From Isoetes taiwanensis (taxonomy: Eukaryota > Streptophyta > Lycopodiopsida > Isoetales > Isoetaceae), in the NCBI GenBank assembly GCA_021234155.1, contig JAJEKV010000039.1:4942745-5006744 (forward strand): 64,000 nucleotides of DNA, read 5' to 3'. Positions 1,775 through 64,000 of this stretch are shown here, in pieces; the stretch's first letter is position 1; each line of letters opens with the position of its first letter. The notes below the pieces were generated by a model, which saw nothing but the letters and a program-made list of their open reading frames with translations, ran no database searches and was not told the DNA's origin. The position numbers were made by a program, and so were the translations under genes.

Positions 1775-1792
1775 CTCCCCCACCAAACGACA
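1775..1792 (-). other. Polypurine tract of element M, copy A
   Basis: On the minus strand a G-rich purine run (GGTGGGGGAG) sits right before the LTR start TGTTAG. That is the expected place and make-up of the plus-strand primer of an LTR retrotransposon. Confidence 0.7.
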
Positions 1793-10670: not shown

Positions 10671-10702
10671 CATTAGGGCGTATTTGGGGTCTCAAAATGG
10701 CC
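10671..10702 (+). repeat. Left terminal inverted repeat of giant element, copy A
   Basis: CATTAGGGCGTATTTGGGGT and on to ...CAAAATGGCC. Two mismatches against the inverted right end over the first 31 bases. Weaker similarity (CACGTCA..TTTCT) continues inward. Confidence 0.8.
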
Positions 10703-11811
10703 TCGTAAGAGCCATTCCACGTCAGATTTCTTATTCTTCTCCCCAATGCCATGTAGATTACCTACCCTTCATAATTATAGATTCTCACGAATTTTGAGAG
10801 ATTGCGCATTTATTGTCCCATTTTCACATATTAGAAACAAATAAAAAATATGTATGGCATTAAAGCATCGCGACTATGACTAATAATGATGGCTTATTGA
10901 CATTCACAAGGTAAAAGAATTTGAATATAAAAAAGTGATGGTTGATGTTGAAAGGAGGGCACTGATGATATCCATTCCTCATTGAGAATGAAACAAGCTT
11001 GAGATGCTCTATCGGACTTGTTCCTATATATATAGCGAATACATCTCAAAGAACAAGATGCAAAGAGGTTTGTGAAAGCCCCTAACAAAATCATTTAAGC
11101 TCATATGGATGCACTCAGTACATGCATACACTATGGGTCATGCACCTCCTAGGGCGCATCCACTTGGTTTTGTTAGAAATGGGACAATTATGAAGTGGAC
11201 AAGGCATGGAGAAATCCTATAAGCATCCAAGGTAGCTTTTTTTCATAGAAAGCGAAAGGGGTGGAGGAAAAATAGTCACCATCCCTCTCGGATATATATG
11301 ACAGAATGTAATAGCTATCACGAAAATAACTTATTGTGTCATTAGAGGAAAAATGAGATCAACTTGTCCCTATAAGAGAAATTCCATGTCATTTTTTTCC
11401 TATTTTCCATGTCATCCTTCCCATGTAGTTAATGCACCATTTTTAACTTACCAACTCAACAACCCATCTATTTAATGAACCTAACTAATGCATCTATTTA
11501 ATGATTTTCGTTAACCCTCTTAGTAGCACCTAACTAAATTAATTACTCATCATCCACGTTTTGCGAAAAATGCCAAATCGTTGACCTCCATTTACGTGAG
11601 CTTCAAGCGGCAAAGCGAGGATTATCCCACAAATCAATTTCAAAGTTGAGCTTCTAAATTCAGACCTCCAAAATCGAAATATGGTGCTGAGCCAAAATTC
11701 AAATATAGGCCTCCACAGTTGCACGGAATTTTGAAGGTTCAATTCCTTCGATTGAAATTTTTGCATTCTATTCTACCTCATCCTATTCTACCTCAATTTC
11801 TTGCTCACACA
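10703..11811. other. Left non-coding arm of giant element, copy A
   Basis: AT-rich sequence with no credible gene and none of the hairpin repeats found at the right end. It should hold the promoter of the transposase-like gene that starts at 11812. Copied at 53199-54303. Confidence 0.5.
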
Positions 11812-12954
11812 ATGTGAGAAATTAGAGTCTCTTTGCCATTCAAAGATTATGCACCGGCTTGGTCGGGGAAAGGAGGTGGATTGAAGCAAAAAGTGGGCGA
11901 GAACCTACTAAGAATTTTAGGTGCAAAACATGCGAGATATATGGGCAAGAGGAGACATATATCCACGGGATCCTATCACGGGCCAATTTCCTGAATTCAA
12001 CTCTGTAAGTGCTTTAGTGAAGTTTAGTTGTGAAGGCAAACGTGGTTTGCTAGGTTACGGTGAGAACATGACAAACTATATTCAACAGCTTTGTTTTAGA
12101 ATTCATCAGTTACATACAGTTGTAAAGGAGAAGGAGCAAGAATTAAGCACGCTAAGAGAACAAGACAAGCAATTGGCATCAAAAGTTGTAAAGCTTGAGC
12201 TGAAACTCTCTAACTTGCAACAAGATTATTCTTTTTGGAGACCTTTGTGATCAATCAAACTAATCGGAATTGAGATCATCCATAAGCATGTGGGAAGGAA
12301 GAATGCAAAGTCAAGACTTTGGAGAAAAGGTTACAGCAGCTTGAAGATGACGCCATTAGGTCTTCGGGAAAGGAATAGGAAAACAAAGCCAATTGAGTCA
12401 CTAAATCCGACTTGCGGTCAGCAAGGAGAAGAATTTATGCAATAAAGAGAGTTCTCAACACAAAAAAGGAGAAGAACAATGTTAGAGGTAACATAGGAAA
12501 GATTGTTAGAAGTATTGCAACAAAAGATGAGGTGCTGGCTATGTTGAATGATCCAAGGAATAGTTCTTTGCGTAGAGGTGTTGTGGACATGATCATGAAA
12601 GAAATTCACTCTAAGATTGATGCAAATGAAGTGCAAGCCCATTGTGACTCATCAGATATTAGTAGAGAAGCATATAGAGTTTTGTTTAAGTCATTTCAAG
12701 ATGCTCTTAAAGTATTGGGAACCAAAAAGGTTGTTGCACCTCGTCCTTATGCATTGAAGTTAATTGAGAAGAAGAAGAAAGCGACTATTGATGATGTTCT
12801 AGGTGGCATGCACTCACTCGAAGTCGGGACTGCCCATTTAATAAAAAGCACAAAGAAGAATAATGCATGTGAAAGTGTTGGCTTAAGCGAGAACAACAAT
12901 GTATGCGGTTTGACATGGAAGCATTGCTAAGATTCATGGTTGTCTTTTTATCAG
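11812..12954 (+). pseudogene. Transposase-like gene, exon 1, copy A
   Basis: Counterpart of 54304-55439 (see there). The start ATG at 11812 is followed at once by a TGA because 'atgacagaa' of copy B reads 'atgtgagaa' here. The open parts still encode the acidic N-terminal region with [20 protein letters not shown], a coiled coil ([20 protein letters not shown]), and [19 protein letters not shown] in a second frame from 12412. The splice donor after 12954 is altered (tcag|ggtatc against tcag|gtatgc). Confidence 0.7.
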
Positions 12955-13191
12955 GGTATCGCATTTGACTCATTTGAAGTCTGATTTTGATTTTATTTGG
13001 ATCACATTTGCAAGTTTTGCCATGCCTTAGTTGGAAAAATGTTTTAAATTTTGAAAGCTTGCACTTTTTGCTGCCATTTGCTTTTGTGACGAGGTTGTAC
13101 ACACCTGAGAGATCTAGGATTGCGAGCATGAACTCTCACTTGGCTTCAATTACCGTGGAATACCCGGATAATACTATATGAATCTTTTTTT

Positions 13192-13330
13192 GGGTTGCCC
13201 CTAGGGGGCAAACCCTCGTTATAATGGGTTTGTGGGATATCACGGTATATGCTAGAATATACTTAGTATATGTTGATATTACTAAAACCCTTTGTTCCCT
13301 GTAAATGCCGCGGTGGGTTCGTTGTGGATC
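13192..13330 (+). repeat. GGGTTGCCCC-motif repeat, unit 1, copy A
   Basis: Starts with the near-palindrome gggttgcccctagggggcaa and continues with a body containing 'tttgttccctgtaaa' and 'gcgttgtgg'. A second long copy lies at 20182-20320 and a short one at 17274-17360. The function is unknown; it may mark the joins of captured segments. Confidence 0.55.
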
Positions 13331-14039
13331 AAGGATGTTACGGGGCCAGGATGGCGGCTCAATCGATGAATCTGAACACATCGGGGGGCGATAAATTTGC
13401 TTATGGCTATATAGAAAAAAGAGTTAGGAATTAGAAAGCGGAGGGTGAGCCATAATCGGTGAGATCACCGGAAGCTGTAAGCTCTATGCATCCTCTCATT
13501 ACGGTGATTTCGATTTATATTCTATGCAAAAACCTATTTATTTAGGGATCCGAGCGGCGTGGAGGAAATATCTTCATTCACTTTGCATCTCGACTTTGAA
13601 CTTCCGTTTCAGCATCGTGTTCTTCAAAGATGCAGCTTCCTCCTCTTTGTTCCACAATTCTTAACAAATTCTTTGTTCTCTCTCTGTTCTAGTTTGCAAA
13701 TTTATTGTTTTACGCCCCTTTCTTCTTGAATTGTTCTCTCTTTTTTTTTCGTCTTTCAGGAGGTCAATGGTTAACAATGGAAGGATTATATGATAAAATT
13801 CCTTTTAGAGTAACCTTATCGGCGTCTTTTCATGAGCTAGCAGCATTTGCATAACCTTAGCAAAAGCGTGTTATTTTTGTGTAGTATTGAATTGCATCGT
13901 GGCCGAACCTTTGCGGTGAGACCATCTGGGACATCATAATCATACGATGTATTGCAGCGGATGAATCCACGGCGTCAGCTCTTTACATGGTGCGGCTTTT
14001 TAGGTGATGTTTAATCATCATGTAAGATACTTATATGTT

Positions 14040-14330
14040 CTAGTATTTGTCTATATTGTACAGATGAATTCTCAGCTAGGTGTCCTATTCTATGTTTTAT
14101 TTCCGTTTTATGTCTCACTAATTGTGGCCTTACTTCCATGCAACTCTTCTACACCAGCATTTTGCTCGAGCCATTTTCGTGCCTTGTTATTCTATCCAAG
14201 GGCTAGATTCCACCTGCAGATGAATTCTCACCTAGGTGTCTTATTCTATGTTTTATTTCCACAAGCATTTTGCTCTGTGCCATTTTACGTGCCTTGCTAT
14301 TCTATGCAAGGGTTAGGTACAACCTGCGGC
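14040..14330 (+). repeat. Tandem duplication around TTCTATGTTTTATTTCC, copy A
   Basis: Two imperfect direct units share 'cagatgaattctca', 'attctatgttttatttcc' and 'cattttgctc...gccttg'. A further pair (14600-14690 and 14705-14800) shares 'ttagttagttttaatctt' and 'aacaataagttttt'. Both recur in copy B (56560-56820 and 57083-57285). Confidence 0.6.
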
Positions 14331-14982
14331 GATGGGGCGCTTTGCACAATCAAAGTCCGTGCTTATTTTTCGCCCGGCCTTTCGGGTCTGATTTCTAACT
14401 TCTGATAGCATGATATTTTTACGCCATGGAGTTTTCAGCGATGTGAAGATATATCTTTGGATAAGGAAAATCCATCTCTGCCTTTGCGCAACATGATTCA
14501 AACACCCTTTTCGCTTTTCGAAGGTACTCTATGAATCACGCCATGTAAAGTAATTGGAAGCCTTGTTTCAAAGTCACTGAAATTGTCATATTTAGGTCTT
14601 TTTTCGTGCCTTACACATCGTAGTTAGTTTTAATCTTCTCTTTGCTTAACAATAAGTTTTTGTACCGGTGTCTTTTCTTGTGCTTGAAAAGATAGAAATT
14701 GTTACTTTTCGGTGTTTTTTTTTTTTGTGCCTTAGATCTTTAGTTAGTTTTAATCTTATCTTGCCCTAACAATAAGTTTTATGTACCAATGTCATTTCGT
14801 TTTTACATCTAGCATGTTACGCAAGATGGGCGTTTTGGCATTTGCGGATAAAGGGATCAATCATCGAAGGAAGTATTCACAGTTGGCATCTATAATCTTT
14901 GCAAATATTAGACATAGTATTGCTATGATTTACAAGACATTGCCTTTAGGGTTTGGATAAAAAGGGTAGCACTTCTTTTCAG

Positions 14983-15929
14983 GAACATTGCTTGAGGGTT
15001 ATTAAAAGAACCTTTGTCGCGTCGTGATGCGGATGGGCATATCATACTGCGTGAATGTTGACACAGATGTGATAATATCAGAGGAGCCTCCATATGGTAT
15101 ACTTTTATACTGCACAAAAACACGTTAAGAACGCATTGTAAGCCAGAAGAGCTCTATCACATAATTGAACGTTTTGCACTTGGTCAACGGCGTCTTGAAC
15201 TGTTTGGGAAAGACCATAATATTCGTGCTGGTTGGGTGACCATTGGAAAGGGGCTCACTTCATCAAACTATAATACCCATTGACTAAGAATTCAAATATC
15301 ATGAACATAATTAATTCAGAGTTGGCTGTTCTCTGAGTCTTATATATTGTTGCAGACTTATTCAAAGTATTTCTCGATGCGAGGAAGGTAAAAGTATGGC
15401 AAGGAGGCTGTGGAAACCCTCCGGTGATGCTCCCCATTTGGTTGGCACAACCCTTGAGATAAGCACTTACCGCCCAAATCACCTCCACTTAGACCACAAC
15501 GGCCGCCCCGGTCCCAAAGGCTGCAAGTGCATCTCGGCCTTGATGACTTCTAGCAATAAGAAGCCTCGGTTGCGGCATCTCCCTACTGTTCCTCAAGATG
15601 GGCAAGTAGCACCATAAAATGGCCTACTACGGTAGAGTCATCACTTTATTCTTTGTGGTGGATGTTGTTCTTTGGGCTGATCTCGATTCCCCTATGGTTC
15701 AAAATCCAAAGGTTGCTTTCGGTATTCTTTTCTTTGGCGGTTACGTAGCAAAGACACATTTGTTGCCTGCATGCGTGATGGTGGCTTGGATAAAGATGTT
15801 TCAGATTATTTAGGGATAGATACCGTTGAGCTTCCAAAAGAAACTACCAGCACTCAAGAGGGGACACCTGTGGAGGTTGTGGAAAGTACCCCAAATGGAA
15901 GTATATCTGATGTTGGGAGGCCAGAATGA
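14983..15929 (+). pseudogene. METTL14/MTB-like m6A methyltransferase fragment, copy A
   Basis: The degraded counterpart of 57473-58424. Exon-like pieces keep [20 protein letters not shown] and the C-terminal frame ending in SISDVGRPE with stop at 15927-15929. CAG/CTG-associated changes break the first and third exons. See the copy B entry for the family argument. Confidence 0.75.
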
Positions 15930-16410
15930 GGCCTTTTATTCATGTCACATGAAATTCAAATTTTGCCTTATCATGTACATTATATTTTGAGATATTGTAA
16001 GCTCAATTCTGTAGTTGGAGCATTACACTCTGTATATAAAAATTTTGTGTACCATTTGGTGCTGGATTTGGTGCCCAAAGGCTCCATCAACGAACATTAC
16101 AAAGTTTTCGTCTTTGCAATTAACCTTTTAAAGATCGATCTTCGACCCGGGGGCCAACCGCGCAATTCAAGTATTGCCGATTCTTGAGAGATAATAATTG
16201 AGATATTTTTGTTGTAGACTAGAAATTAGTAAGATATCTTGTGTGATATTGTATATCACTGTTCTATCTGTTGTGGGTGGTGGTCGTCGTTGTCATGAAC
16301 CCAATTTAGATGGAGATTATGACATTTTTTAAGCCCAATTTTGATGGAAATCAAGGGGAATGTTTTTCCTAGATTAGAAATTGATTTCGATTTAGGCTTC
16401 TTGCTTCATA

Positions 16411-17130
16411 TTCATCCTTAAACCTAAATCTAGAGAATTATATATCGGATAATGGATGTGAATGGCTATTATGTCCAGTAGGTCATTACCTCTGTAAAGG
16501 GTTCTATGACATTTGAGTCCTTTACATGGCATAATGGACCTCCTCATGGGAATTACCTAGTACAAGATTGTCTAGAAGCATCATTAGGATGTCAACTATT
16601 TACATTTTAGAAATACTTCTTAGATGGTTTTCCATGTAGGGTTTCGTCGTAGAAGCAAAGCACATGCCTCTAGATCAAGGCCATTCCCATTTGCTACGTT
16701 CAAGGCTATTCCCATTGCTACGCCACTCTTGAACTTGAGTAATCTCTTGATGAATCCGGTTGCTACATATTCATCCCTAAACCTAAATCTAGCAAATTAT
16801 ATATCGAATAATGGATGTGAATGGCAATTATGTCTAGTAGGTCATTACGTCTGTAAAGGGTTCTAGCAGCATTTTGGAGTCCTTTACATGGCGTAATGGA
16901 CCTCCTCGTGAGAATTACCTAGTATAAGATTGTCTAGAAGCATCATTGGGATGTCAACTATTTACATTTTAGAAATACTTCTTACATGGTTTTCCATGTA
17001 GGGTTTCGTCGTAGAAGCAAAGCACATGCCTCTAGATCAAGGCCATTCCCATTGCTGCGTTCAAGGCTATCCCCATTGCTACTTGCCACTCTTGAACTTG
17101 AGTAAACTCTTGATGGATCCAGTTGCTACA
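16411..17130 (+). repeat. Tandem duplication, two units of about 360 bp, copy A
   Basis: Both units start 'ttcatcc.taaacctaaatct' and end 'gttgctaca'. They share the segments 'tggatgtgaatggc', 'gtaggtcattac' and 'gtagggtttcgtcgtagaag'. No coding potential. Present in both copies of the duplicated region. Confidence 0.85.
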
Positions 17131-17273
17131 AGAAAATGTCTCATGAACATAGACACTAAGAGAAATGATGCCTTCTAACTTTGATTGCCCAAGACTGCCT
17201 CAAAAAAGAACAATAAAAGAAGTTACAGTTGATAAGTACAATTATGGTTATGTATGCTGACTCAACCAATTTT

Positions 17274-17360
17274 GGGTTGCCCCTAGGGGGGCAAACCCTG
17301 GCTTATGTGGATTTGTGGCATATCCTGGGTATGCTAGAATATACCCAGGTACCAGAAATG
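17274..17360 (+). repeat. GGGTTGCCCC-motif repeat, short unit, copy A
   Basis: Contains gggttgcccctaggggggca and a truncated body. It lies just left of the Helitron insertion site. Confidence 0.5.
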
Positions 17361-17379
17361 AATTATCTTATTATTATTA

Positions 17380-19638
17380 CTAGTTAAGGTGCCCAGCGTT
17401 GCTGGGCATAGCTAGAAACTGTGAATGACATACTGGAGCAATTGTGAAATGGATTCTTGTTTTTAAAATTGGATAATCAAGAGTATTTGACCACATTTCG
17501 CACTTCCCCTTATCTTTTCCGTTTTCCTTTTTCATTTTGCCTTTGTCTACTTTTTTTTTTTTTTCCTATTTTCCCCTTGCCCCTTTTCCCTTTTTACATT
17601 TTTCAATTTACTTTTTTTCTTTTTCCATTATTCCATTTCCTCTTTTTCTCTTTTTTTGTTTCTGCTTCCCCATTTTTCCTTTTCTATTTTTCCCTTCCGT
17701 TTTGTGCAATTTGTGGTTGCCCCTTTTCCCTTTCCTTGTGCCCTTCCCCCCCTCTCTTTTTCCATTTCCCTCTTCCCCTTTTCCTCGTGCCCTTCTTTCT
17801 AAGTCTTCCTTTCTGCTTTCCCCTTTCCTTTCCCTTTTCCCTTTCGTTCTCCCCACCTTTTCCTTTTTCCCCTTTTTCCCTTCCTTTTTCCTCTTTTGCC
17901 CAGCCCTTCAGGCTTCCTTTTTTTCTAGTGCCCTTTTCCCTTCCTTTTTCCCCCTCCTTTTTTCTTTTCCCTTTTTCCCTTTCCCTTTTTCCATGTCCAT
18001 TTTTCCTTCGCTTTTTCCCTTTCCATCTTCCCTTTTTTGCCATGTCCCTTTTCTCTTCTATTTTTTCATGCTCTTTTTTCGCTCCTCTTTTCCCCTTTCT
18101 TCACCTTTTTCCTCCTCCCCCTCCTTTTTCCTTTTTTCCTTCTCTTTTTCTTTTTCTATTTTGCTCTTCCTTTTTATTCACCTCCCCTTTCTATTTTTCC
18201 ATTTTACCTCCCGTTTTTTCCCTTTTGCCGTTTTCCATTTGCTTCCACTTTTTTCACGTTTGCCTTTTCCATTTTCAACCTCCTTGCTTTTCCCTTTTTC
18301 TATCCCCTCCCCTTTTCACATTCCTTTTCTCCCATTCCATCCCCTTCGTTTCCCTTTCCCCCTTCCCCTTTACCAATGGCCTTTTTCCCTTCCCTTTTCC
18401 TCCTCTCCCGACCCTTTCTCTATTCCGCTTTTTTTGGGTGCCCTTTTTTCCCTTCCATTTTTCTCTCTTAGCCTCCTTTTTATTTCTTTTTTTCCCTTTC
18501 TTTTTTCTCATGTCTTTTTTTTCCTTCCCTTTATTTCTCTTCCCTTTTCTGAGTGCCATTTTATTCCTTCCCTTTGCCCACCCTTTCCCTCTTCCCTTTT
18601 TCTCGTAGTCTTTTTTCTTTCCCTTTCCTCCCTCACTTGTTCTTTTTCTTTTTTCCCTTTCCCTTTCCTCCCTCCTTTCTCTTTTTTTTTTCCGCTTCTC
18701 TCATTCTTTTCTCTTCCTCTTTTCCCCATGCCTTTTTTCCCTTTTGCCCCTCCCCTCGCTTTTTCCTTTTACCCTTTCCATCCCTTCTCTCCTCCCTTTT
18801 TCTCTTTCCTTTTTTTTTTCGTGTCCTTTTTCCCTTCCTTTTTTCTCCTTTCCCCACCTTTTTTCTCTCCCCCTTTCCCACTGTCCCTTTTCGCTCCCTC
18901 CTTCTCTCCCCTTTTTCCCTTTCCTTTTCCCTTTTCCTTTTCCCTTCCCTTCTCTCTACCCTTTTCCTCATCCCTTTTTTCCCTTCCTTTTACTCCTGTC
19001 CTCACCCTTTCCCTCTTCTCCTTTTCATAGTGTCATTTTTTCCTTTATTTTCTCTCTTACTTTTCCTTTCTCTTTTTTGTGCTATTTTCTATTTCCTTTT
19101 CCCTTTTATCCGTGTCTTTTTTGCCTTTATCTCCTCCCTTTTCCTCCTTTCCCCACCTTTTTACTCTCCCCCTTTCCAAGTGTTCCTTTTCACTCCCTCC
19201 TCCTCCCCCTTTCTTTTACCTTTTCCTTTCCCTTTCCCTTTTCTTTCCTTTTCCCTTTTCCTTTTCCCTTCCCTTTTCTCTACCCTTTTCCTCATCCCCT
19301 TTTCAACTTCCCTTTTACTCCTATCCTCATCCTTTCCATCTTCTCCTTTTCATAGTGTCCTTTTTTTCTTTATTTTCCTTTCCCTTTTTCGTGCTCTTTT
19401 CGCTTCCCTTTTTTCCTTTCTTTCTATCCCTTTTACCCGTGCCTTTTTGCCTTTCACTTCGCCATTTTCTCCTCCCTTTTCCTTATCCCTTTCCTCTTCA
19501 GACATTAGAGCATGGCCAATCATGGTGGAGGGAAGTCGTGCGATAAATCTCGACCTCCGAATGCAATCGGATGATCTCAACCATCCAAATTAGGGTTTCA
19601 TTCATGACATACTTACGCTATAACATTATAATATAAGA
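17380..19638 (-). mobile_element. Non-autonomous Helitron, 2259 bp
   Basis: Read on the minus strand it starts TCTTATATTATAATG at 19638 and ends with the hairpin GCCCAGC-AAC-GCTGGGC (17407-17391) followed by ACCTTAACTAG, the classic Helitron 3' end (stem-loop about 11 nt before CTRR). It sits between A and T with no target duplication. The matching empty site is intact at 59877|59878 in copy B. No Rep/helicase is encoded; the body is a polypyrimidine minisatellite. Confidence 0.9.
17505..19498 (+). repeat. Degenerate polypyrimidine minisatellite inside the Helitron
   Basis: About 2 kb of nearly pure C/T on the plus strand. It is built from imperfect blocks that begin with short 'gtgcc' or 'gtgtc' interruptions followed by tttttcccttcc-type runs. 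The long Phe/Leu/Pro/Ser and Lys/Arg/Gly/Glu open frames it gives on the two strands come from base composition and are not genes. Confidence 0.9.
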
Positions 19639-20181
19639 TTATTTCTATTATCATCTTATTCTAACTGTGTTTATAACAATTGGAATCTATCCATGGCTAG
19701 ATGAAATTCCACTACAATCCTATAGAAAACTTGCAGCTGTAATTACGTTTCATCCCTTTATCACAAAAAGTGACTTGGAACAAAGGTAGATAAGAAAACC
19801 CTTGTGTTCTTTCATTAAATAAGTGGAACGTTTAGCCATCATAAAACACAATTAGCAGGTTTGGAGTGGCAGTTTAAGCCAACGTCTTGGCTCTTGACCT
19901 TGGTTATCAAGGTCTACTCTATGAATGCAATCACAAGCAAGCCTACTGGGCCTACAAAAGACCCCAAAAAATAGATCCGGAGATAGAAGATGACGTCAAT
20001 TTCTGGTGCTTCTTCCATTCTGGCTTCTAACCCGCAAAACCATAGCCAAGGCTAATTCTATCTATGAGTCTTTCAAATTTCGTCTGCAAAAGAAATACTC
20101 TTTATTTGTAGATTTATTTTTTATAGTGGCCCATTATGCTCGAATAATTGTGATGGGAAGAACAAAGAACATATTTCTTTT

Positions 20182-20320
20182 GGATTGCCCCTAGGGGGGC
20201 AAATCCTCGCTTATGTGGTTTGTGGCATATCCTAGGTATGTGCTGGTGACTGCCCCAAACCCATTGTTCCCTGTAAACTGGCGTTAACCTGCGTTGTGGG
20301 CCGCTGATGTTTGAACTGGA
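20182..20320 (+). repeat. GGGTTGCCCC-motif repeat, unit 2, copy A
   Basis: Begins ggattgcccctaggggggca and shares the body 'attgttccctgtaaa...gcgttgtgg' with unit 1 at 13192. It directly precedes the LRR fragment. Confidence 0.55.
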
Positions 20321-20483
20321 TAACTGGAAAAACAGACAGAGCATCTGGCTATGGCGACCTCCAAGAGGCGAAGCCCTCCAACCATTCCTGAGGGCCAAGC
20401 TTTTTGGATTATATGGCTCTATATCCGTTACCATTAGCAGATTCAAGAAAGATTTGTATCAGAAAGGGGATCCAGGCTATTCA

Positions 20484-20697
20484 AGATGAAAGATTCTTGG
20501 TGGAATTGAAGGAAGCTTTGCAAGCTTTAACAGGCAGTGTCCTAGACACATGGGTGTCTGGTACTGATCCATGTTCTTGGACGGGGATCATTTGCACGGG
20601 CAAAAGAATTACAGCTATATTTCTAATCAAAGCTTGTCAGGATCAATATCTCCTGCAAGTTTTTAGCCTAGTTACAAATGTGAAAGTTCGCATTTGA
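20484..20697 (+). pseudogene. LRR receptor N-terminal fragment (LRRNT_2), copy A
   Basis: The translation contains [39 protein letters not shown] and KRITAIFL, the cap domain that precedes leucine-rich repeats in plant receptor kinases (L..FK..L, then W....PC.W.G..C). In another frame [11 protein letters not shown] follows as in a first LRR, so the fragment is frame-shifted. Downstream sequence to about 21150 gives only broken frames. No kinase domain is present. It looks like a captured gene piece inside the intron of the transposase-like gene. Confidence 0.7.
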
Positions 20698-22122
20698 GAT
20701 ACTGATACCAACAAATTAGCTTGGATCAGCTGGGCTAGTGCCTGAGGAGCTCTGCCTGTTTGATTCAACAGTCTCAGGTTGAAAAAGTTTGTGAAATTAG
20801 TGGATTTGGTATTTAGCGCCAAGTATTCCATAAAGTGGGCTAATGGCAAAATTATGTTCTAAAGCTAAAGGCAGAAGACATGACTCCAGTTAGCGACATT
20901 GGTTATGCTTACTCTCCTTGGGGCCTGCCTTCGTAATCTTCTTCCCAGTGTTCTTGGTTCCCCTGTAACCAGATACCTCCAAGCTACAAGAATTCTTGAC
21001 TGATTCACTTCGGACAAAGGTTGCTCTTCGGAGAGCACGGTATGATGAAAGTTGAGGGGGAGTTACCATCTATCGAGACAGGCTGAAACACCTCTACGCC
21101 CAAGGGATCGACCCAACATGGATGCCAATCCAGAAGCCAACATGAACTGCAGCAAGGATGCACAAAATGTCAATGTTTTAAAATAGCAATTTTGATTGAT
21201 TGCAAAAACATCACTTTCAAGTACGATTTAAGCCACTTCAACCTCCGGGCATGGAGGGCAACCCTCTGTGCGCAACACCTTGATTATTTAAGTTTTCATA
21301 GTTTATAGTGGAACAGAATGGCAAGTATTTGTGCGAAGGGGACTGTTTTAATAATGCACTGCATTTGGTTTTCTTTAGAGTAGTAAACTATATTGGATAT
21401 CCCAATCGAGCTGATGTCTTTGTGACTTTTATGTTCTCATGCACTACTAACATCACTATAGACTTGAAACAATTTTATTGCCATGTTGCACTCTAGGAAT
21501 TTCCAGCGTTGCAACTACTGCAAAACAGCATACCAAAGATATGTCCAAGTTAGAGTTCAACAAGCTTGGCTTTATTCAGCCAAAGCTATTTATACAAGGC
21601 CACTATGCATACAGAAATCACAGCCAAAACTAGTTATACAAGGCCACCATGCAGCCAAAACTAGTTACACAAGGCCACTCCAGAATACCTTTAGGAATGC
21701 AAGGATCACTGAGTGTTCTTAGCATGGCCATGGCATGAGTAGATGTCTGATATTTGACCATAATCTTGGCTGTTTTGACTTCTGTATTGCTCCATAATGA
21801 TGTCATGTTTTTCTGCATAAATAATTATAGATGCCTTTTAGCATAAAAGCCAAGTATTCAGACAGCGAATGATAGTAGCAGCTGCCTCCATAAGTTCATC
21901 AAATATACTCATCCTCGTATACTTGAGAATCTCTATGACAGTGACCACAGGTTGCAATTGCAATCCAGTTTAGAATAAGATACCCTGTCCAGCTTATAAA
22001 ACATTATACATTATACAAAATTAATATTACAATAGAATTATACAAAATTAATATTACAATAGGAGCATCAATGATATTACAATATTTCATATCTAATCTC
22101 AAGCTTTTCTCATCATTATTAG

Positions 22123-23553
22123 GTACAGGAGGCTGAAGTTCAAGGCACGCTAGAGATATGTCTTAAACTTGATGAAATGGAACTAACCAACAAGAAGAAG
22201 TTTGAGAGGGTATCAATGGTCTTGATGAATTATGCTCTTCGTTCAGACTATGAGAAGAGAGGACGGAAGCCAAAGAAAGGCGAGAAACCGAGGGATCCAG
22301 AATGGTTTTCAGTGCAGTCAGAAGAGCATACGTGGTGGCTTGTAATGTTCCAAGTGCAAAAAGAAAATTACAGCATATTGAAATGGGTCTTCGATCAGAC
22401 AGAACTACCACGACTAATTGGGTTCTACAAATCAGGAGAATTGCTAAAAGTGGATGGCCACGGTTCCTTCAAAATCAGGTTTCATTTGGCTTAGACCTTA
22501 AAGACTGAGAAGGCAATGTATAACATATCTTCCACACCATTACAAACCCATAGCAATTGCATTTATTGTATGTATAAACTGAAAGAACAGAAGAGAGGCA
22601 GAAGTTCAAGCACCTTGGCATGTAACCAAGAATTGCCACCCAATAGGAACCAGAAGGATTCAAACTTTAATGCTATATTGCCAATTCCCACGAGCGAGTT
22701 CACTTTTTGCACCTTGCATGCATTAGTCGAATTGTGGAGAAAATGATCCATCCACGGTTGTTGCTTTATGCGGAATATTAAAGGTGAGGAAGAAAGAAAT
22801 GAAGGAATAGAAAGAGTGGAGAAGGTTTTATCAGAGGCCGGATTACATGGTGGTTTTGTCACATTGGAGAAGGATGAGAAGAAATCAATGAAGAGTTCAG
22901 TGCCTGCCAAAGTCTCTTTGGGTGGTGACAAAGCGCGACGCTTTTTGAAAAGCGTAGATCCAAAACGTAAAGGTATGTTTGAATTCGGAAAGAAGCTTGT
23001 GCAGGCCGAGAAGGATAGAACAGATAGAGCACGATCTACCATTAAAAAATTAGAAGCATGGAATGCATTTTCTGATTTAAATGCACTGTTGCAGAAGCAT
23101 TCTTTCAACCCAGAAGATGCAAATGCTTTCAAAGATAGGGTCTCAAAGTTTACAACAGCATACATTGCAGCATGGGGAGAAAGCGAGGTTAGTCACTATA
23201 TCCACATATTGCATGCACATGTGCCCTGGTTCGCCAAAACATATGGTAGTCTTGCAGTTTGGAATACTCAAGGTATGGAAAAATCGCATAAACAAGCAAA
23301 AACGTCCTTCCATAGAGCAACGCAGAGAGGTGGCAATAGATTGACATCCAAACCCTTGTACCAAATGAATCAGTGGTTCTATAGGAGACTAATTGCAAGG
23401 CATGAGAGAAATATGAGACGAAGAGCAAATCCTATAACTGAACTATCAAAAAAAAGGAAAAGGGAAGCTTGGATGAAGTCGAATGGCAAGGCAACACAAA
23501 TGGAATGGAGATCAAGAAGACAACGAGTTGGAAGCAGCTGGAAGTTGGAATAG
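22123..23553 (+). pseudogene. Transposase-like gene, exon 2, copy A
   Basis: Counterpart of 62444-63876. Two breaks: a TAG at 22491-22493 where copy B reads 'cttcagacc', and a frame change near 22690-22770. From 22768 to the stop at 23553 the frame is open and intact, including [38 protein letters not shown] and [20 protein letters not shown], where copy B is damaged. Between them the two copies show the exon was open throughout. Confidence 0.75.
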
Positions 23554-24048
23554 ATTCCCGGGGGATTCACCTCTATTGTAGGTATATATGCCATGTGCGT
23601 TCCTTAGGTTGCCAAAAAACCCATTGTATACGACAGTTCCATATGAAAAACCCTTTGTATACGACTACATTATTTGTAAAAGAATGCAACCCATATCATA
23701 TAATTACTTGCCCAAAACACTTTTACTTGACAACCCCTTCCATACATATACGATATCTCTATTATTTTTTATATATAATATATATATTATCATAGTCTTA
23801 TAATATTATCACAGAATCCCCAACAATAGAAGCTCACCAAAAATGACGAACCCTTAGAGTATGAATACGAATCAAACACTGGCGCCACCACAATCCCTCT
23901 GGTATCCGTACCGCATTCAAACTATAAAGACCTTATATTTTTCTTATGTATACGGTACTAGAGAGGCAATAAAAAAACCCATTTGGTGCACTCACATGTT
24001 TCATACCCCATAATCTAGGTGAACCCCCCGGGAATAGATTAACTCAGC

Positions 24049-24440
24049 AAAGTTACAACTCGTACCTAATTGTTTGCATTAATAGGTTGGAATTTTCTTC
24101 ATTGGCTCATACTGCATGATATCTGGCTGCATGCATCAAATCAGTATACTTGTAGGTTGTGTTTGCACCACCGGTTCAAATAACATCGCATATCATCTTT
24201 GAAATCGCCATGTAATCAAAGCGCCATCATTCCCTCTTACAAAGTTACAACTTCATTACCTAATTGTTTTGCGTTAATAGGTGCAAGTTTCTTCATTGGC
24301 TCATACTGTATGATATCTGGCTGCATGCATCAAATCAGTATGCTTGTAGGCTGTGTTTGCACCACCAGTTCCAAATTACCGTCTGCATATCATGCGAAAT
24401 CTGCCATGTAATCAAAATTGCCATCATTCCCTCTTACAAG
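24049..24440 (+). repeat. Tandem duplication, two units of about 191 bp
   Basis: Units start 'aaagttacaact' at 24049 and 24240 and share 'cttcattggctcatactg' and 'catcattccctcttacaa'. Non-coding. Confidence 0.85.
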
Positions 24441-24955
24441 CAAAGTTAACAAAAGCTTTTTGATCTTTAAACAAACCTTTGGGTTGATCTCTAAAACATC
24501 ATTTTCAATGAGCAAACTTCCAGGAGAGCGTTCAATGTAAGCAATTGAAATTTCTCCTGCTTCATCATCTTGATAAGGTAGCTAGGGCTGCAAAAACTAG
24601 TCCAGCCACATGGAACATGGGCAACACCATAGCAAGCAGATCATCTTTGCTTCTATCCATCAATGGAACCACGGCCTGCAAGAAAAAACACCATTCGGAT
24701 CGACTACTTTCTTGCATTAGAGATGTATTAACAATTTCCAAATCGAACAAACAAAACCCTTACATGCACATAACTTAAACCCTTGAAACAAGACTACTAC
24801 AAATTACATACCTTTGGTCTTCATTGTAAAAATCAATCCATGTATGTATAGAAGTAAGAAAATAAAAAAAGTTAGGGCTATATTTGAGCGACAAGTAGCC
24901 TTGATACAACCCATATAACAATCCATGTAATGAGTCACGGAAACCCCAAAATACC

Positions 24956-27267
24956 TCAGATTACGGTCTCATCTTGAAAGGTAGCATTTGGCACGACATC
25001 ATCTTCTATTCCCTTTTGCAATGATTAATATGAAGTATAAAACGGATTGTCAATAACTTCAGCAGGAACTATACATAAAAATGGAGGAACTATATGGTTA
25101 ACACTGAAAAGGCAATACTAGAAGCAAGATATTACCTGGTTAAATTCAACCTCCAAGAAGAGCTTCACTCCATCCTCAATGACCTTCTTGAGTGCCACAT
25201 CTTTCAAGTGAGCAAGCACTGTACCATAAATTATTCTACAACATTCTTGACAAGAAGAAAAATTGATTGTTAAAAGTTCTAAAGATTCTCCTACATCTTG
25301 AGACTCCTCGAGAATCTGTCAATGGTCGTATAGGGCCGGTATGTATGGTTTTGTCTCTTGGCCCGAGCCGATTATCTTTGACAATTGGCGAGGAATGTTG
25401 AACTCCTTTGCAATTTCTTCCTGCAACAATGACAAAATAAGAAGCTACGACAAGTGTAAAAAGTACAACTTTAAATATCATACGGATTAAAACTATTTTA
25501 GATGTCGCACTCTGATTCTCTCTTTTCCCTATGACGAGTTCAAGCTGCTTTGGGGAGGCACTTAAATATGCTTTTTATGCAAGAAAGTTATCAACAATAA
25601 TTATTGACAAAATCTAAATTTGGATAAAACTTTCTTGAGAAATAAGTCAACTAGTGTTTGTTAGATATTCCGAGTCACTAGTTCATACCACAGACCTTAT
25701 TACACAGTTTTAAGTGGTTGAAACGGTTTCTAATTACAAGCTTTTGTATACGACTCTATCCAGACTTTATTCAGACAAAAGGCTCCTCTTTACGATCTTC
25801 CTGCTATTTCATTTAAAGAGATAACGATGGCTGGTGTTGACACATGCCCGGACTTCTTTGGAATGCTTTCGGACACGCATATAATAGTTTAAGAACTCAG
25901 AACTATGCAACAAGACTTTGAAATGAAGGAATGCACACTAAAAACAGTACCCTCGTAGACCACGTTGGGAATCGAACCCAACAGCTGACCATTGTGATCT
26001 TTTTTTTTTGTTTTTCTTTCAAATTCCTTTTTGTTTACTGTAGAATGGCAACTTCCAAATTGTGAGGAAATATGCAATCTTTACATTTGATCAAACATTC
26101 TCTCCTGAAACCAACCTTTTTATTGTTTCTTATGAACTAAAATTCTGAGAATCCAGAAAGAGACTCCAACAACTTTCGGTATTCTAAAAGTGACCACTCT
26201 TCTTCCACATCGATTGTGTATGAGCGATCCTCTCCCATGCTTACTTCTATTTGTATCATTGGAGATCTTATGCAATGTTCTTCTACTGCTTTCCAAGATC
26301 GTTGCCCATTCTCAAAACTTGTTTCTTCCTTTGCACATAAAAATTGCAGTATACTGTCTGCTAACTATATCTGAAGAAAATAAGTTAGAACATTCCAACA
26401 GCATGCACTGTAACAAAAAGGGGTATAAGTACACGAATATCATCTTTGCTTGTGTCAAGCTGCACATTACGTAATTTGACCACCAGTTTCATGAAGCTTT
26501 GTCTTCCAATCACCAAAAAAACTATTACAAAGTTTTTCATCCTTAACATCATGTATAGGGGCAATTTTCAGTGTATTCACATCCTTAAATAGAAATGCAA
26601 ATACTTTCAACGGAAGCATAACCTTCACCCCACATCTAACACCTCCTCTTTCTGTCAGCATCCTTCCCACTTCCATTGCTAACATGCGTCGATATGCTGT
26701 CAGGATTTGAATATCATGAGAACTCCTAGATAAAAGAGTGAGACTTGGAGGGTTCACTAATGTGAGTTTGCCTACTTTACCTTCTCGCTTGGTGTAATGG
26801 TATTTATGGAACCAGATACCATTATTCCGTAGAGTTGACATTGATGTACCAGAAAATAGCAACTGTCCAAGACTAAAATGGTGAACCTCCAATACACTAG
26901 TTATGCACTGGACTGGAACCTTATCTTTGAAGTCAGAAGAGCAAACACAATTAACTTCTAACTTCGGAAATTGTGGTGTCATGGCAATTTCTTCTTTAAG
27001 CATGTCACTAGAGCTCTAAGCATGTTCAACCAAGAGCTGATCCACTGTCCTACCTGCTGGACTAACTATCAATCCAATGACCCTTGCCTTCCAATGACAA
27101 CTAACATCACCTAGTTTTCTCCTTTTGACAGCATGCTCGCCTAATTGACGAGGTCTCATTGTCACCCATGATCCCAAGGAAATATGCATCTCAATCCAAT
27201 TGTCGTTGCTGTCCTTGCAATTCTTTACAATAATGTGACTTATTTGAGATCTACTGCTACCCATGAC
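24956..27267 (-). CDS. Unrecognised multi-exon gene of the giant element (3' part)
   Basis: Three exons can be supported on the minus strand. Exon 27267-26471 follows a pyrimidine-rich acceptor (atgcag) and encodes about 265 residues including QISHIIVKNCKDSNDNWIEM and LLSRSSHDIQILTAYRRML, with one in-frame TAG at 27016-27018 (possibly from CAG). Exon 25420-25136 (95 codons) encodes EEIAKEFNIPRQLSKIIGSG and VLAHLKDVALKKVIEDGVKL, with one in-frame TGA. It splices in phase 0 to the last exon 25012-24956, GIEDDVVPNATFQDETVI then stop. The link between the first two exons is not resolved. It converges tail to tail with the transposase-like gene. I recognise no domain. It is either the second gene of the element or captured cargo. 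Confidence 0.5.
25421..26470 (-). other. Intronic sequence of the minus-strand gene
   Basis: Mostly AT-rich. A possible extra exon near 25500-25560 reads ASPKQLELVIGKRENQSATS on the minus strand, but its splice sites are weak. A T-arm-like motif (TGGGTTCGATTCCCA, minus, near 25965-25980) is isolated and does not fold into a tRNA. Confidence 0.35.
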
Positions 27268-29170
27268 CTGCATTTAAATAGAAAGAAATTATTTTGATTC
27301 CACCAAACCTACGTATCTACAATCTAGCATAAGACAAATTTAAATTGAATCTGAATTTATTCTATTAGAATACTTGCAGCAACAGCAACAGCATAAATAC
27401 GTAAGTCCAAACGTGTCAAACTGCCAAGAACAATGGCGTTTGGAGCGATTCCAAAGACAAGCACAGAAATCAAAGACTTTGCACAGAAAGCCAAAATACA
27501 CTGCAAGACTCCAAGACAATGCTGCACCACTTTATCAATAAAAAATATGACTGAAGAGGATGGCTTCATAAATGGCAGGCATCAGAAAACAGATGCTTGA
27601 TATGCTTTAAGATGAAAGATCTACTTCATCTTTTTATATTATAACAGTGGTTCAAAGATAGCACTTCAACAAAATAAAATACAAAATTCAATCAATTCTT
27701 TAAGAACTTGAATAGAAAGAAAGCTCGCCTTACTAGTTAGATGAACAAACTTGATGCAGATCAATAAGCACCTGCAAAATAGGTATAAAGCCAATAGAGA
27801 TAAATCAATACCTGGAAAAATAGAAATAAGATTTGTCAGGCAACACAAATAGAAACGTTAATGCAAGAATAATCACATATCCATCTGCCAATCTGGAATA
27901 AATTGAAATTGCATCTGACTTTATTCAGAACTAACTTGTTTAAGGTAATATGCCAAATTCAATCTATTATTTAAGAAACTTGAGCTAAGAAATACACTAC
28001 AGAACTTATATACGAAGCTTAACATACTAAGTTGAATACACAGATTTGATGAAGAGCATAAGTTTCTGGAGAGTAGATACGAATCCAACGAAGATGAATA
28101 AATACCTGAAAAAATAGAAAAAAGAAGATTTATAACGGCAAGGCAAGACAAATAGAAACATTTCTGGAATGCAAATAGAATCATTCAATATGACATATCC
28201 ATATGCCAATCCGAAAAACAGATGGTTCAATCGATTAAGAGGAAACCTGCAGTTAAAGCTTTAACAAATCGCTACTGTGTCAATCGCTACTGTGCCATAT
28301 CCACACCGCAGTCAAATTTGGCATTGAATCCGGGAGAACAGAGCTTATCTGCAGTTGACGATGTTCACGTACAGTGCTCCTCCGGTGCTCCTCCATCAAA
28401 CGAAACCCTAATACTAAAGCAATCCCAATTTTGGAGGGAATCGAGGATTCCAAAATTTACGGATTTTCCTCCATTAAAAAAAATAAAATAAAAACCCTAC
28501 CAAACTTTAATGACATAGCATTTAAAGTTATAACAACCAAATTATTTAATGCTTGATAAATTGCCAAGTATATGCCACGTAGGAAGCAAGTGCCACCTAA
28601 TACCGGCATAGATAAAACTAGAGCTATTCTCCTATTGGCTGACACATTTTGCTGACGTATTTTTTTTTATTTATACATTGGGACAGAAGTTGATCTCATT
28701 TTTCCTATAATGTGAAGAGGAGGAGATCACTGGAATAGCATCGATCAAAGAAGTACCCCAAATGTCCGTGAAGATGCTAATAAACGACATTATACTTTGC
28801 AATGCAAAGGGTTTATACATTCTTGAAGTACAAAGGTTGTTTGTGTTCAGATACCTCTAATACAAGAAGTCTTTAACTACTTTTCATAATAGATTCCTTT
28901 AAAAGTCTATTGCTATTTAAATTGTAGTAAAAATGAGTCTTGAAACTCTTTAAGTAGTAGAAGAACTCTTTGACTAGTTATCCATTTGATGACCATTTTT
29001 TAAGAAAATATGATATGTGACATTCTTATATGCAAATATTCATAAAATTTATGAACATTGAAGATCAAAGCCATCCTTGTTTAAAGAGGATCATTATATG
29101 ATGCGAAATATTCATGCGCAGAAGTAATTGCATATAAGAAATTCGCCTGGTGTAGCTATTTTTTTTTCAA
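27268..29170. other. Non-coding or 5' part of the minus-strand gene
   Basis: AT-rich, with no clear coding exon. On the minus strand a 'tagggtttcg' leader at about 28405 precedes ATG 28396 and a short open frame (MEEHRRSTVREHRQLQ) that could be the first exon of the minus-strand gene. The support is weak. Confidence 0.3.
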
Positions 29171-29173
29171 GAT

Positions 29174-30617
29174 GGATCACACCAAGCGAATAATACATAT
29201 GCAAAAAAAAAGGGACACACTAAATTCGCATGGTGTGATCCACTTTCTTATTTGTTGTCAAATTAAAATTAAACACAAGTACTCATTCCTATTTGTATCT
29301 AAAATGCTTTACCACTCTTAAGTACATAAGTCATTATCCCTTTTCAAACAGCATATTTTTTTTCAAGAAGGATCACACCAAGCGAATAGTACATATGCAA
29401 CAAAAATGGAACACACTAAATTCGCATCGTGTGATCCACTTTCTTATTTGTTGTCAAATTAAAATTAAACACAAGTACCCCTTCTCATTTAATGCTTTAC
29501 CACCCCAAGTGCATAAAGTTATTAGTCCTTTTCAAAGAGCATATCTTTTTTTAAGAAGGATCACATCAAGCGAATAATACAATGCAAAAAAAAATAGAAC
29601 ACAATCATTTCGCATGGTGTGATACGCTTTCTTGCTTGTTGTCAAATTAAACTTAAACACAAGTACCCCTTCCTATTTGCATCTAAAATACTTTACCAAC
29701 TCTAGTAGTACATAAAGTTATTAGCCCTTTTCAAAAAGCAAACACTTTATCAATAAATGAGCACGTCACTTATCCACACTTAACTTCAAATAAGACACAT
29801 ATATATTTTTTTTATTTAAAAGATAATCAAAGTAATTTTACTATAGGAAGTCATCTTTTTCCAAAAAGATCACACGACGCGAATTTTGTATAAGCTAAAA
29901 TGTTGGAATATACTAAATTCGCATGGTGTGACCCACTTTCTTGTTTGTTGTCAATAGATAATAACACCAAAGTCCCTCATCAATAGTCTCCCATTTGCAT
30001 GTAAAATATGTATCATTCCAAGTTATATTATGTTTTATGAACTAAACTTTTTCAAAGAGGGTCCCAAAGCAAAATACAAACACTTAATCAATAAGCCAAC
30101 ACTTTACCAACAACCAAAGCTTTATTAAATAAGATTTTTATGTTATTTTATCAAACCTAACAACGTTTCCATATGTGACACTTTGTGTTAACTGATCCTC
30201 TGGGCCGGAAAGCGGCATTTTATATATAATATGTCTTTGGAGCTTTTGTGTCGTGGCATTAGTAAACGCCTCTAATGGAGCAAATATTTTGTAACTCATT
30301 TTTCAACAACCCTCGATGCACGTCTTATCAAACATTTATTCATTGCAAGGACACCATTCTCATAACTTTGAGGCTTGCACAATTCGCTTAAAAGAGGTCA
30401 TGGGACGACTTTCAAGCTCGGCTCCCACAACTTTACAACGTAAAACTAGATGCCCATTGCTCAAATCCCCGACATCTGATAAATATAGGCCAAGAAAAAT
30501 ATTTGATTCAGTGGGTGAATATAAATCAAGAAGGAAGAAAAAAGAAGCAAGGATCACATGACGCGAAATCTCACTACACATTTACAAAGTGCATATGCAT
30601 TTTCGCATGGTGTGATC
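29174..30617. repeat. Five subterminal hairpin repeats of the giant element
   Basis: Each unit has GGATCACACCAAGCGAAT (or a close variant) followed after about 32-34 bp by its inverse ATTCGCATGGTGTGATCC. Arms: 29174/29241, 29370/29437, 29558/29624, 29867/29932, 30550/30617 (outer ends). The first three units are direct repeats with a period of about 190 bp, including the flanking 'cactttcttatttgttgtca'. Clustered inverted motifs near one end resemble transposase-binding subterminal repeats; that role is inferred. Confidence 0.8.
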
Positions 30618-31552
30618 CATGTATTATTGAGGGTGCAAATTTGCAAATATCCTCCTCTTCAAATCCCTTCCCCCCCCTTCCTTCCTTCCCTTTTTTTTTG
30701 CAATATACTATCCATAGCATTTATTTTGAACCCTATAGTTCTACCTATTCATTGCGTATGAATGTCGCTCCGGCGATGTAACTCCATAGTCACCCTTCCT
30801 TAAGGATAGCATTCTCACCCACGAGCCTATGGATAGATATCCTTCCACCGTCATGCCTTTATTGTTTTGTAAGTGATGAACTGCAGAAGCAATGTAGGAG
30901 TACTAGGAGCAATGATGGATGCAATTAGAGATACAGATCGGTCGTTGAATTGTAAGAATGAATGGCTGGGAAGAGCTGAAAAGTAGGAAAACTTCAAAAT
31001 GAAAATTTGGGTAGTAAAAATATGGCATGTAACGTACGTTTGCTTGTCCACACATCGCCTCACCGTTGTTGCTTAAGTCTATGCTCGCCCCTTATTGATG
31101 CTATAACATACTCACCCATGAACCTTTGGAGACATAACCTCCTACTTCTTGATCTTGAGTGTTCTGTAAATGGAGCAAAAACACAGACACTATTGGAGAC
31201 TTGGATTCCAAATGAAGAGTGAAGGCGGAGAGGATGCACGTAGCGGCGCTAATGTGAACAATGGAAATCTTGGTGCCAAAATTTGATAAGGTGGTTGGTG
31301 CATGTGGGCGCATGTGCACAGTAGGCGGGAAAAGTAGCCATTATTTTGGTCCGCGATACGATTTTCGAAAAATGCGGGCCATTAATGTGGTTGCAATGAA
31401 TGCACAGACATGTCCTATGAAATTTCGCCATGTGGATGCCACGTAAGCTTGCTCCTCTTTCTACTTGCCAACTAATACTGACTTTGGAAAAAAATGCGCA
31501 AACATCATTGGTCGCGAGAAACATGACGTGAAATTCTGGCATCCAAGTTATG
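30618..31552. other. Right non-coding arm of giant element
   Basis: No credible gene. Two loosely similar blocks (around 30785-30850 and 31080-31140, sharing 'tcaccca.gaacct' type text) suggest an old duplication. Confidence 0.4.
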
Positions 31553-31584
31553 GGCCATTTTGAGACCCTAAATCCGCCCTAATG
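31553..31584 (-). repeat. Right terminal inverted repeat of giant element
   Basis: GGCCATTTTGAGACCCTAAA and on to CGCCCTAATG, the inverse of the left end with two mismatches over about 31 bases. Confidence 0.8.
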
Positions 31585-36049: not shown

Positions 36050-36751
36050 CGTCCGATGCGAAATTAAGAAATTTAATGGTTGAGATTAAAAACAGCTGAT
36101 GTGGCACGACACGTGGCATATCTAGGAATGCTGGAAATCGGGCAGAGGGGGTTAGGCAACCCTGCTAAAAAATGAGGGTCGTTCAAATGAAAGAAAATAA
36201 GGAAACCTTTAAAAGATAAGAAGAAGAAAATAATAAAATTTCAATATCTTGCTAAATGGTTAGTTGGATAAATGTTTGACTATCAACTATTTGGTCACGA
36301 GTTCAAGTCCATGTAAAGGCGAGAAGTGCTTCATTTTTCAAAGATGTTTGCTTGTGGGAAGATCTTACACACTATTTTTGAAAACTAAATTTTGAAGCCC
36401 CAAAAAATTTGAAGACTAAATGAGGTCGAAGATATATCTATATAATCATGTTATTTTCATTTGAGACTCTATTTTCCAACAAGACTATTTATTCTCCAAC
36501 GAGCTTATTCAAGTCAAGCACCGTATTATGAAGATCAAGATTATATGGTTAGTGCAACTTGATTGGATCTAATTTCCAAGTTTTTTTCAATAATTCAAGC
36601 TATCAAAGGAAGTTGTACAAGTTTTATTTTTTATTTAAATGATTATGGATGGCATGATGGATGTGCTGACCTAGAAAGGCAGCAGCATCCCATGACCAAT
36701 GTAAAATGTGATGAAAAAGTATAAGTGTTGTGAAAAGGATAGAGCGACATA
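36050..36751. other. Unassigned, probably copia internal sequence
   Basis: No gene supported. It borders the plus-oriented copia 3' end that follows. Confidence 0.3.
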
Positions 36752-37465
36752 CCGGGCAGTAGAGCGAGGGTGCCACTGACCTGGATGGGACTTGCCACCT
36801 TATAATTGATGAAGATGAAGTGATGTTAGAAGTTTAGTATTTTTTTTCCCTTGGAAGACTTCTAGGATGTTTTTGAAGACTTGAAGACATTTTGACATTG
36901 GATTTTTGTTAAGTTGTGATGCTATTTTGAGGACCAGGTTGAAGACATGAAGATCAAAGAAAAGATTTTTGAAGAATTCATCGGACGATAAATAATCTTG
37001 GGGGGGAATAATGTTGTGCATTTTTTCTTGACTATTTTTGCATGATATGCTTAAATTGGTGAAATGTGTGCATAAATTGAGAACAATATGGGTGTAATGC
37101 AGAGAAAATATAAAAACTGTGCCAATATTGTGGAGGAAGCATTTATGATGTACTGAAGTGGAACCTATGGACTTGAAGGAGTATTAAAGTCCTTAAGAAA
37201 TATTTTCAATGGTTGATAAGTTAATGATGTGTCATGAATCTAGAAGAGCATGGTAGTTGCAGGGAGTTTAAATGGTCTAGATTTGATGTTCAGTTGGCAA
37301 GATCTAGTGAACTTATGGTAGTTAGAATTTGGATCTAAGGTTGAGATTTGCTCAGATCTGGTGGCTAGGATCAAGTGCAGTTTTGTATAAGATAGCCAAA
37401 ATTCATGTAGAAGGAAGGCCCAATTTTGGAAGATGACATCTGGGCAAAGTTCTTGAAGTTGTGAC
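36752..37465 (+). repeat. Copia-type 3' end: internal tail, polypurine tract and LTR start (R reference copy)
   Basis: The internal tail (36752-37000) is followed by the purine run cttgggggggaataa and an LTR start TGTTGTGCATTTTTT at 37012. The LTR is kept for 454 bp. It contains the undivided sequence aggatcaagt|gcagttttgt (37376|37377) that shows where the giant element inserted in the other copy of R. Confidence 0.75.
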
Positions 37466-37960
37466 TATGCTCTTCTAAATTCATGACACATCATCGGAAT
37501 GTCAACCATTGAAATACTCCTTCAAGTCCATAGGTTCCACTTCAGTATATTATAAATACTTCCTCCACAACATTGGCACAGTTTTTACATTTTCTCCACA
37601 TTACACCCATATAATTCCTCGTTTCTGCATACATTTCAAAGATTTAAGCTCATTATGCAAAGAGGGAGAAGATAACACACACAACATTATTCCCCCCCAA
37701 GATTATTCATCGTCCCGATGAATTCTTCAAAAATCTTTTCTTTGATCTTCATGTCTTCAACTTGGTCCTCAAAATAGCATCACAACTTAACAAAATCCAA
37801 TGTCAAAATGTCTTCAAGTCTTCAAAAGCATCTATAGAAGTCTTCCAAGGGAAAAAAAAATACTAAAAACTTCTAACATCACTTTATCTTCATCAATCAT
37901 AGGGTGGCAAATCCCATCCAGGTCAGTGGCATCCTCGCTCTACTACCTGGTATGGCTTAG
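37466..37960 (-). repeat. Copia-type 3' end in inverse orientation
   Basis: On the minus strand: internal tail (37960-37700), purine run gggggggaataa, LTR start TGTTGTGTGTG at 37686, LTR cut at 37466. It mirrors 36752-37465, so two LTR starts run toward each other and both are truncated at one shared point. Confidence 0.75.
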
Positions 37961-63876: not shown

Positions 63877-64000
63877 ATTCCCGTGGGATTCACCTCTATT
63901 GTAGGTATATATGCCATGTGCGTTCCTTAGGTTGCCAAAAACCCATTGTATTACGACAGTTCCATATGAAAAACCCTTTGTATACGACTACATTATTTGT

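Follow-up and report, generated by a model that had tools for sequence, protein, structure and literature searches.

The enzyme that shuffles vertebrate antibody genes in V(D)J recombination has RAG1 as its catalytic subunit, and the transposon ancestry of RAG1 has been traced mainly via animals. Among the closest known systems are the two-gene RAG1L-RAG2L elements (RAGL/ProtoRAG), which duplicate 5 bp of target upon insertion (PMC7204232). Transib-like proteins (39) have been reported in plants by Tao 2022 (PMC9435367), so plant occurrence alone is not new. Kojima 2025 (PMC12730594) describes a CMCT clade (EnSpm/CACTA, Chapaev, Mirage, Plavaka, ESTA, Lanisha and Transib) with C(2)C and H(3-4)H motifs, CA..TG ends and target duplications of 2-5 bp; ESTA was recognised there through HHpred similarity to RAG1. 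Duplications of 0 bp are reported in the same article for Harbinger-related elements (all three articles are cited here from excerpts). We analysed a 64,000-nucleotide stretch of the lycophyte Isoetes taiwanensis (contig JAJEKV010000039.1, positions 4,942,745 to 5,006,744), called the window below. At 10671-31584 it carries a transposon nested in another transposon. The inner element is very probably a copy, with a broken transposase, of an autonomous two-gene DNA transposon that has a RAG1-fold transposase and a convergent partner gene, inserted in a non-autonomous element with a related CATTAG end.

Results

Two nested elements

The first-pass annotation had described the locus as one giant class II element of 20.9 kb with inverted ends of about 31 bp. 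The ends are real: the terminal inverted repeats (TIRs) are 32 bp long with 94% complementarity, and the end pattern was matched three times in the window and never in 100 shuffles (the third match is the duplicate at 53167). Inside them lies a second TIR pair of 26 bp (25/26 matching, at 11340-11365 and 28687-28712), which reads CATTA[G/T]AGGAAAAATGAGATCAACTT. In all four complete outer copies found elsewhere in the genome, the inner element is absent and the base equivalent to 11339 is joined directly to 28713, an exact empty site. Because the second TIR pair bounds exactly the stretch missing from these four copies, a 17,373-bp element is nested in an element of about 3.5 kb, which by itself is non-coding. 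The class II assignment stands; the single giant element is replaced by a nest of two. The 20.9-kb size is explained by this nesting, with 8.1 kb of the inner element being inserted cargo. Both genes belong to the inner element, the direct repeats to the outer element and the gene fragments to the further 8.1-kb insertion (Table 1).

Table 1. Features of the nested locus in the window
Feature	Position	Strand	Remarks
Outer non-autonomous element, left part	10671..11339	+	TIR 10671-10702 = CATTAGGGCG...; collinear in 4 complete copies
Inner element, 17,373 bp, both genes inside	11340..28712	+	26-bp TIR; empty site in 4 outer copies; 13 paired elements in genome
Transposase exon 1	11889..12955	+	Limits approximate, set by scaling from copy 2; covers the N-terminal part and a coiled coil; tblastn queries P0001 and P0003
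Transposase intron, inferred	12956..22128	+	9.2 kb; GT donor and AG acceptor read from sequence
Cargo insertion, about 8,092 bp	13192..21283	.	Edges good to 2 bp; MT-A70 and LRR-kinase fragments, 2-kb pyrimidine tract; absent from C1035
Transposase exon 2, catalytic core (D, D, C(2)C, H(4)H, E)	22129..23553	+	Homologs, alignments, predicted fold, frames
Convergent partner gene	25118..27273	-	Main exon 27273-26470; further exons tentative (26364-26140, 25444-25118)
Outer element, right part	28713..31584	+	TIR 31553-31584; 4 direct repeats of about 163 nt at 29132-29987
Undivided copy of target repeat	37330..37468	+	Empty site 37376/37377
Second copy of nest, same flank, cut by window end	53167..64000	+	Inner element from 53834; transposase core 62444-63472 and 63493-63864

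The ends also pair in other copies of both families. The outer left end has at least 41 matches in its own genome (1.66 Gb; 40 of 964 candidates scored). Outside the window there are 38 such places; for ten of them the sequence 5-25 kb downstream was fetched (20 stretches), and in four the right end was found, at 7.6, 9.9, 10.6 and 15.0 kb. The other six copies may be truncated or may fall outside the 5-25 kb range. The inner left end gave 21 match rows and the right end at least 40 (40 of 64 candidates scored). Pairing by strand and distance used 18 left-end places (the 21 rows after joining of fragments) and 21 right-end rows; the other 19 right-end rows were weaker or fragmentary, and on visual inspection none of them is close to a left end that lacks a partner. 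At least 13 inner elements with paired ends were identified in this way, 6 to 31 kb in length, and ten of the 13 contain a transposase match. One of them, C1035, is a compact element of 8,330 bp carrying both genes. The second nest at 53167, about 42.5 kb downstream, sits in the same flank; it is a segmental duplication and not a second, independent insertion.

Insertion without target duplication

The first-pass annotation had read the outer flanks as two halves of one long terminal repeat (LTR) and had seen no target duplication. The divided repeat and the missing duplication are confirmed: the flanks are halves of one repeat, and in its undivided copy the point of division falls exactly between 37376 and 37377, with 0 bases gained or lost. 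Around this undivided copy, positions 36748-37954 form a large inverted repeat whose arms measure 41-203 nt and are 84-99% complementary, which is odd for a plain LTR. At the junctions of the window copy and four other members of the outer family, the flanks match by at most 1 bp (by eye).

Junctions were read for ten of the 11 inner pairs outside the window locus (C1025 was left out). The ends are clean and the flanks all different, except for C1079 and C1066, which share theirs. A direct repeat of 0 bp was found at six junctions, 1 bp at three (two being C1079 and C1066) and 3 bp at one (C1050). C917 splits a sequence between TTTTGGGTTG and CCCC; the window has this sequence intact at 13188 and 17270, and with a single altered base at 20178. 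The match is short. The C1090 site resembles an insertion in a putative Ty3-type reverse transcriptase frame that gains no residue, and it was left out of the tally of empty sites.

As a control, four other inserts that interrupt these outer copies were read. Three of the four are flanked by duplications: TCCTC at an LTR-type insert in copy C1027, CTATT at an LTR-type insert in copy C1052, and TTAA (2-4 bp, ambiguous) at an insert in copy C1107 that has CACTAG...CTAGTG ends. At the fourth, in copy C1037, the duplication state could not be read. The three visible duplications indicate that our junction reading detects duplications when they are present. The C1107 insert (about 937-4543 of outer copy L031) is 3.6 kb long with CACTAGAGT ends and a short duplication, and looks like an ordinary CACTA-like element.

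Transposase gene and its predicted fold

The two-exon gene and the convergent open frames noted in the first-pass annotation are present. The exon 1 frame is altered in window copy 1; copy 2 reads ...MVVFYQ followed by the GT donor. Several of the relatives P0008-P0016 start coding near the intron position, so this position seems to be old. In copy 1, exon 2 is interrupted by a stop at the second D position (22492) and shifts frame around 22728-22770. By alignment, the motif residues in the relative P0003 are D411, D508, C528/C531, H761/H766 and E785, the D, D and E being the probable catalytic residues. Copy 2 in the window keeps all DDE, C(2)C and H(4)H motifs and copy 1 lacks the second D. 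Several relatives in the genome have open frames of about 860-931 aa that are stop-free in the matched part, apparently intact, intronless members. None of 23 pattern matches in viral contigs is a relative.

Structure prediction followed by fold search placed an RNase H core within a RAG1 arrangement, with the core covered. The first-pass annotation had suggested a cryptic RNase H-fold transposase and had allowed for exon 2 folding as something else. The model is of RNase H type, and the assignment is sharpened to a predicted fold of the RAG1/Transib type; Pfam gave no link to KDZ. Since PDB sequence searches of the core are weak, the RAG1 claim rests on the fold.

The convergent partner

The main exon of the partner has an in-frame TAG at 27016-27018 in the window copy, and one stop also breaks the partner of the duplicate; C1035 reads through. 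The partner had been left unrecognised in the first-pass annotation, and it has no Pfam match (hence none to kelch or PHD); a search of the protein collection (4576 candidates) gave no relative outside this genome. Within the genome it is no stray gene: at least 150 rows were found (150 of 1322 candidates scored) with 43-100% identity, many with open frames of 280-380 aa. To relate the two genes, 144 transposase rows (143 of 2531 candidates scored) were compared with these 150 partner rows at a distance of 10 kb. Where a partner row lay within this distance, it was convergent in 64 of 65 transposase rows, on the same strand in one and divergent in none (the duplicate's transposase fills two rows, so the 64 rows represent 63 genes). 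After the partner positions were shifted at random, a neighbour of any orientation was found in 0.2 rows on average (maximum 2). It was concluded that the partner is a large family in this genome lying convergent to the transposase. The ratio of nonsynonymous to synonymous substitution rates (dN/dS) of partner and transposase, with stop and gapped codons removed, is below 1 in five of six comparisons; each comparison has 1-6 synonymous codon changes, which is not enough to demonstrate selection.

Cargo and repeats

The gene-fragment cargo reported in the first-pass annotation is real. Pfam identified an MT-A70 fragment at 15062-15280 (E 2.6e-10) and an LRRNT_2 fragment at 20392-20694 (E 1.4e-10). 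The PDB sequence matches are METTL14/METTL3 and, for the leucine-rich repeat (LRR) fragment, TMK1/TMK3 as sole matches at E<=0.01; TMK1 and TMK3 are plant proteins, in line with a plant host. As 13192-21283 is missing from C1035, the METTL14-like and LRR-kinase-like fragments and the pyrimidine tract arrived in the intron as one or more later insertions. The tract (17550-19500) is about 2 kb of nearly pure pyrimidine on the plus strand and has no counterpart in the duplicate copy. A near-palindrome, TTTTGGGTTGCCCCTAGGGGGGCAAACCC, occurs in three copies (13188, 17270 and 20178; 73-100% alike). The cargo insertion starts inside the first of these, so TTTTGGGTTGCCCCTAGGGGGGCAAACCC may be the end of another element.

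The repeats that the first-pass annotation placed at one end only are the four direct repeats near the right end of the outer element. They contain the inverted motifs TTCGCATGGTGTGATCC / GGATCACACCAAGCGAA (hairpin motifs read from sequence), and their number seems to vary among outer copies.

Discussion

Comparison with known systems

The inner element shares with RAGL/ProtoRAG the RAG1 core fold, two convergent genes between inverted ends, and a DDE site with C(2)C and H..H motifs. It differs in that its transposase has no RAG1 match above the Pfam cut-off, and its partner, convergent as RAG2L is, has no kelch or PHD match in Pfam. In contrast to both RAGL and Transib, the ends read CATTAG (CATTAGAGG in the inner and CATTAGGGCG in the outer element) and do not resemble the CAC.. 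termini of a recombination signal sequence heptamer, and the target duplication is 0 bp, not 5 bp, as judged from empty sites and junctions. Compared with Transib (HzTransib), there are also an extra N-terminal coiled coil and a second gene. Compared feature by feature, C(2)C, H(3-4)H and CA..TG termini are shared with the CMCT clade, but the duplications there are 2-5 bp in the cited excerpt and 0 bp here. Unlike EnSpm/CACTA, the element has no CACTA termini and no 3-bp duplication; the CACTA-ended C1107 insert provides the contrast. The 8-bp target duplication of hAT elements is not seen either. For KDZ (Kyakuja-Dileera-Zisupton) and Dada, the comparison was made through Pfam only and gave no match of that kind. 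Spy is reportedly the Harbinger-related element with 0-bp duplications; the Harbinger-type transposase of Spy-like elements differs from the RAG1 arrangement. A plant RAG1-like element with 0-bp duplications is undescribed in the titles and abstract openings found, a coverage outside which most subscription papers and bioRxiv preprints fall. With its RAG1-type DDE enzyme and two convergent genes between CA..TG ends, the element is near Transib, RAGL and the CMCT clade and appears to work like them. It is not filed as a member because the duplication length fails, as do the termini for Transib and RAGL, and it is best called a new RAG1-fold lineage.

Weighing the interpretation

Several results weigh against reading the inner element as a transposon of this type. 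The transposase frame is damaged in window copy 1, window copy 2 and C1035, and three of the 13 paired elements have no transposase match. The fold models are of moderate confidence, with TM-scores of about 0.4 (query) and 0.5 (target), and were built on shallow alignments (19 and 18 rows). Pfam RAG1 (PF12940) stays below its cut-off (12.7 and 13.0 for the window piece, against 25 bits) and has no match in P0002 or P0003. Against PDB, the three-sequence profile A4 performed more poorly than a single sequence and ranked a transcription-factor subunit above RAG1, the A1 profile matched unrelated chains only, and P0001 matched coiled coils only. The fold search is unable to tell RAG1 from CACTA, Chapaev or KDZ transposases, for none of which, to our knowledge, a structure has been solved. 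Among the ten junctions, one shows a 3-bp match and three show 1 bp, and C1079 and C1066, sharing a flank, count as one event.

A single 20.9-kb element, with the shorter relatives as internal deletions, would account for everything being flanked by the outer ends; this was ruled out by the exact empty sites and by inner ends elsewhere in the genome, since the stretch missing in four of four complete copies exactly spans the second inverted-end pair and the inner ends recur at ten other fetched sites, with different flanks bar C1079/C1066. It is very improbable that the insertions were staggered as usual and the duplications decayed or were removed by later repair. The 3-bp match kept at C1050 and the single base at three other inner junctions point that way, but decay would leave two similar strings and trimming would cost target bases, whereas the empty sites at the window outer, window inner and (short match) C917 positions show neither loss nor addition, and three of four other inserts in the same outer copies kept their duplications. 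The partner could also be a captured host gene, a mere passenger without a role in transposition. Its lack of Pfam matches and of relatives in the protein search, and the few codon changes between copies, leave room for this, yet we consider it unlikely in view of the 43-100% identity over 150 scored rows, the many open frames of 280-380 aa and the convergent position in 64 of 65 transposase rows with a partner within 10 kb.

The placement of the family is less settled than its anatomy. The family may, at somewhat less than even chances, be a separate plant superfamily defined by a RAG1-fold transposase, an obligate convergent subunit in the role of RAG2, and a zero-stagger transfer unknown for this fold. 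It is possible, if doubtful, that the element instead belongs, in diverged form, to one of the named CMCT lineages (EnSpm/CACTA, Chapaev, Plavaka, ESTA, Lanisha or Transib) and that the missing duplication is a local family oddity; anatomy and fold would be unaffected. The C(2)C and H(3-4)H motifs and the CA..TG ends, as listed in the PMC12730594 excerpt, are all present in the element. Against this placement are the duplications of 2-5 bp given in that excerpt, compared with 0 bp and exact empty sites here, and the fact that RAG1 was reached at the fold level only.

Proposed mechanism and implications

For the lineage proposed here, we infer a cut-and-paste chemistry. A transposase dimer would bind the CATTAGAGG ends of the inner element, and the element would be excised by the DDE site (D, D and E, the last two separated by the C(2)C/H(4)H zinc site). 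Both ends would then be joined to target phosphates directly opposite each other, so that the strands are not staggered, no gap needs filling and the target is not duplicated. Such a zero-stagger strand transfer would account most simply for the exact empty sites. The partner probably has a role in transposition, and the outer family may be mobilised by a related transposase.

Annotation that demands a target duplication would overlook such elements. A large, nested two-gene plant family with a RAG1 fold offers an independent case for studying how a RAG1-type enzyme and a second subunit come to be linked. Duplication-free insertion by a RAG1 fold, if confirmed biochemically, would mean that the RNase H core does not dictate the stagger. 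If the separate superfamily is true, the two-gene RAG-like design arose outside the animal RAGL line.

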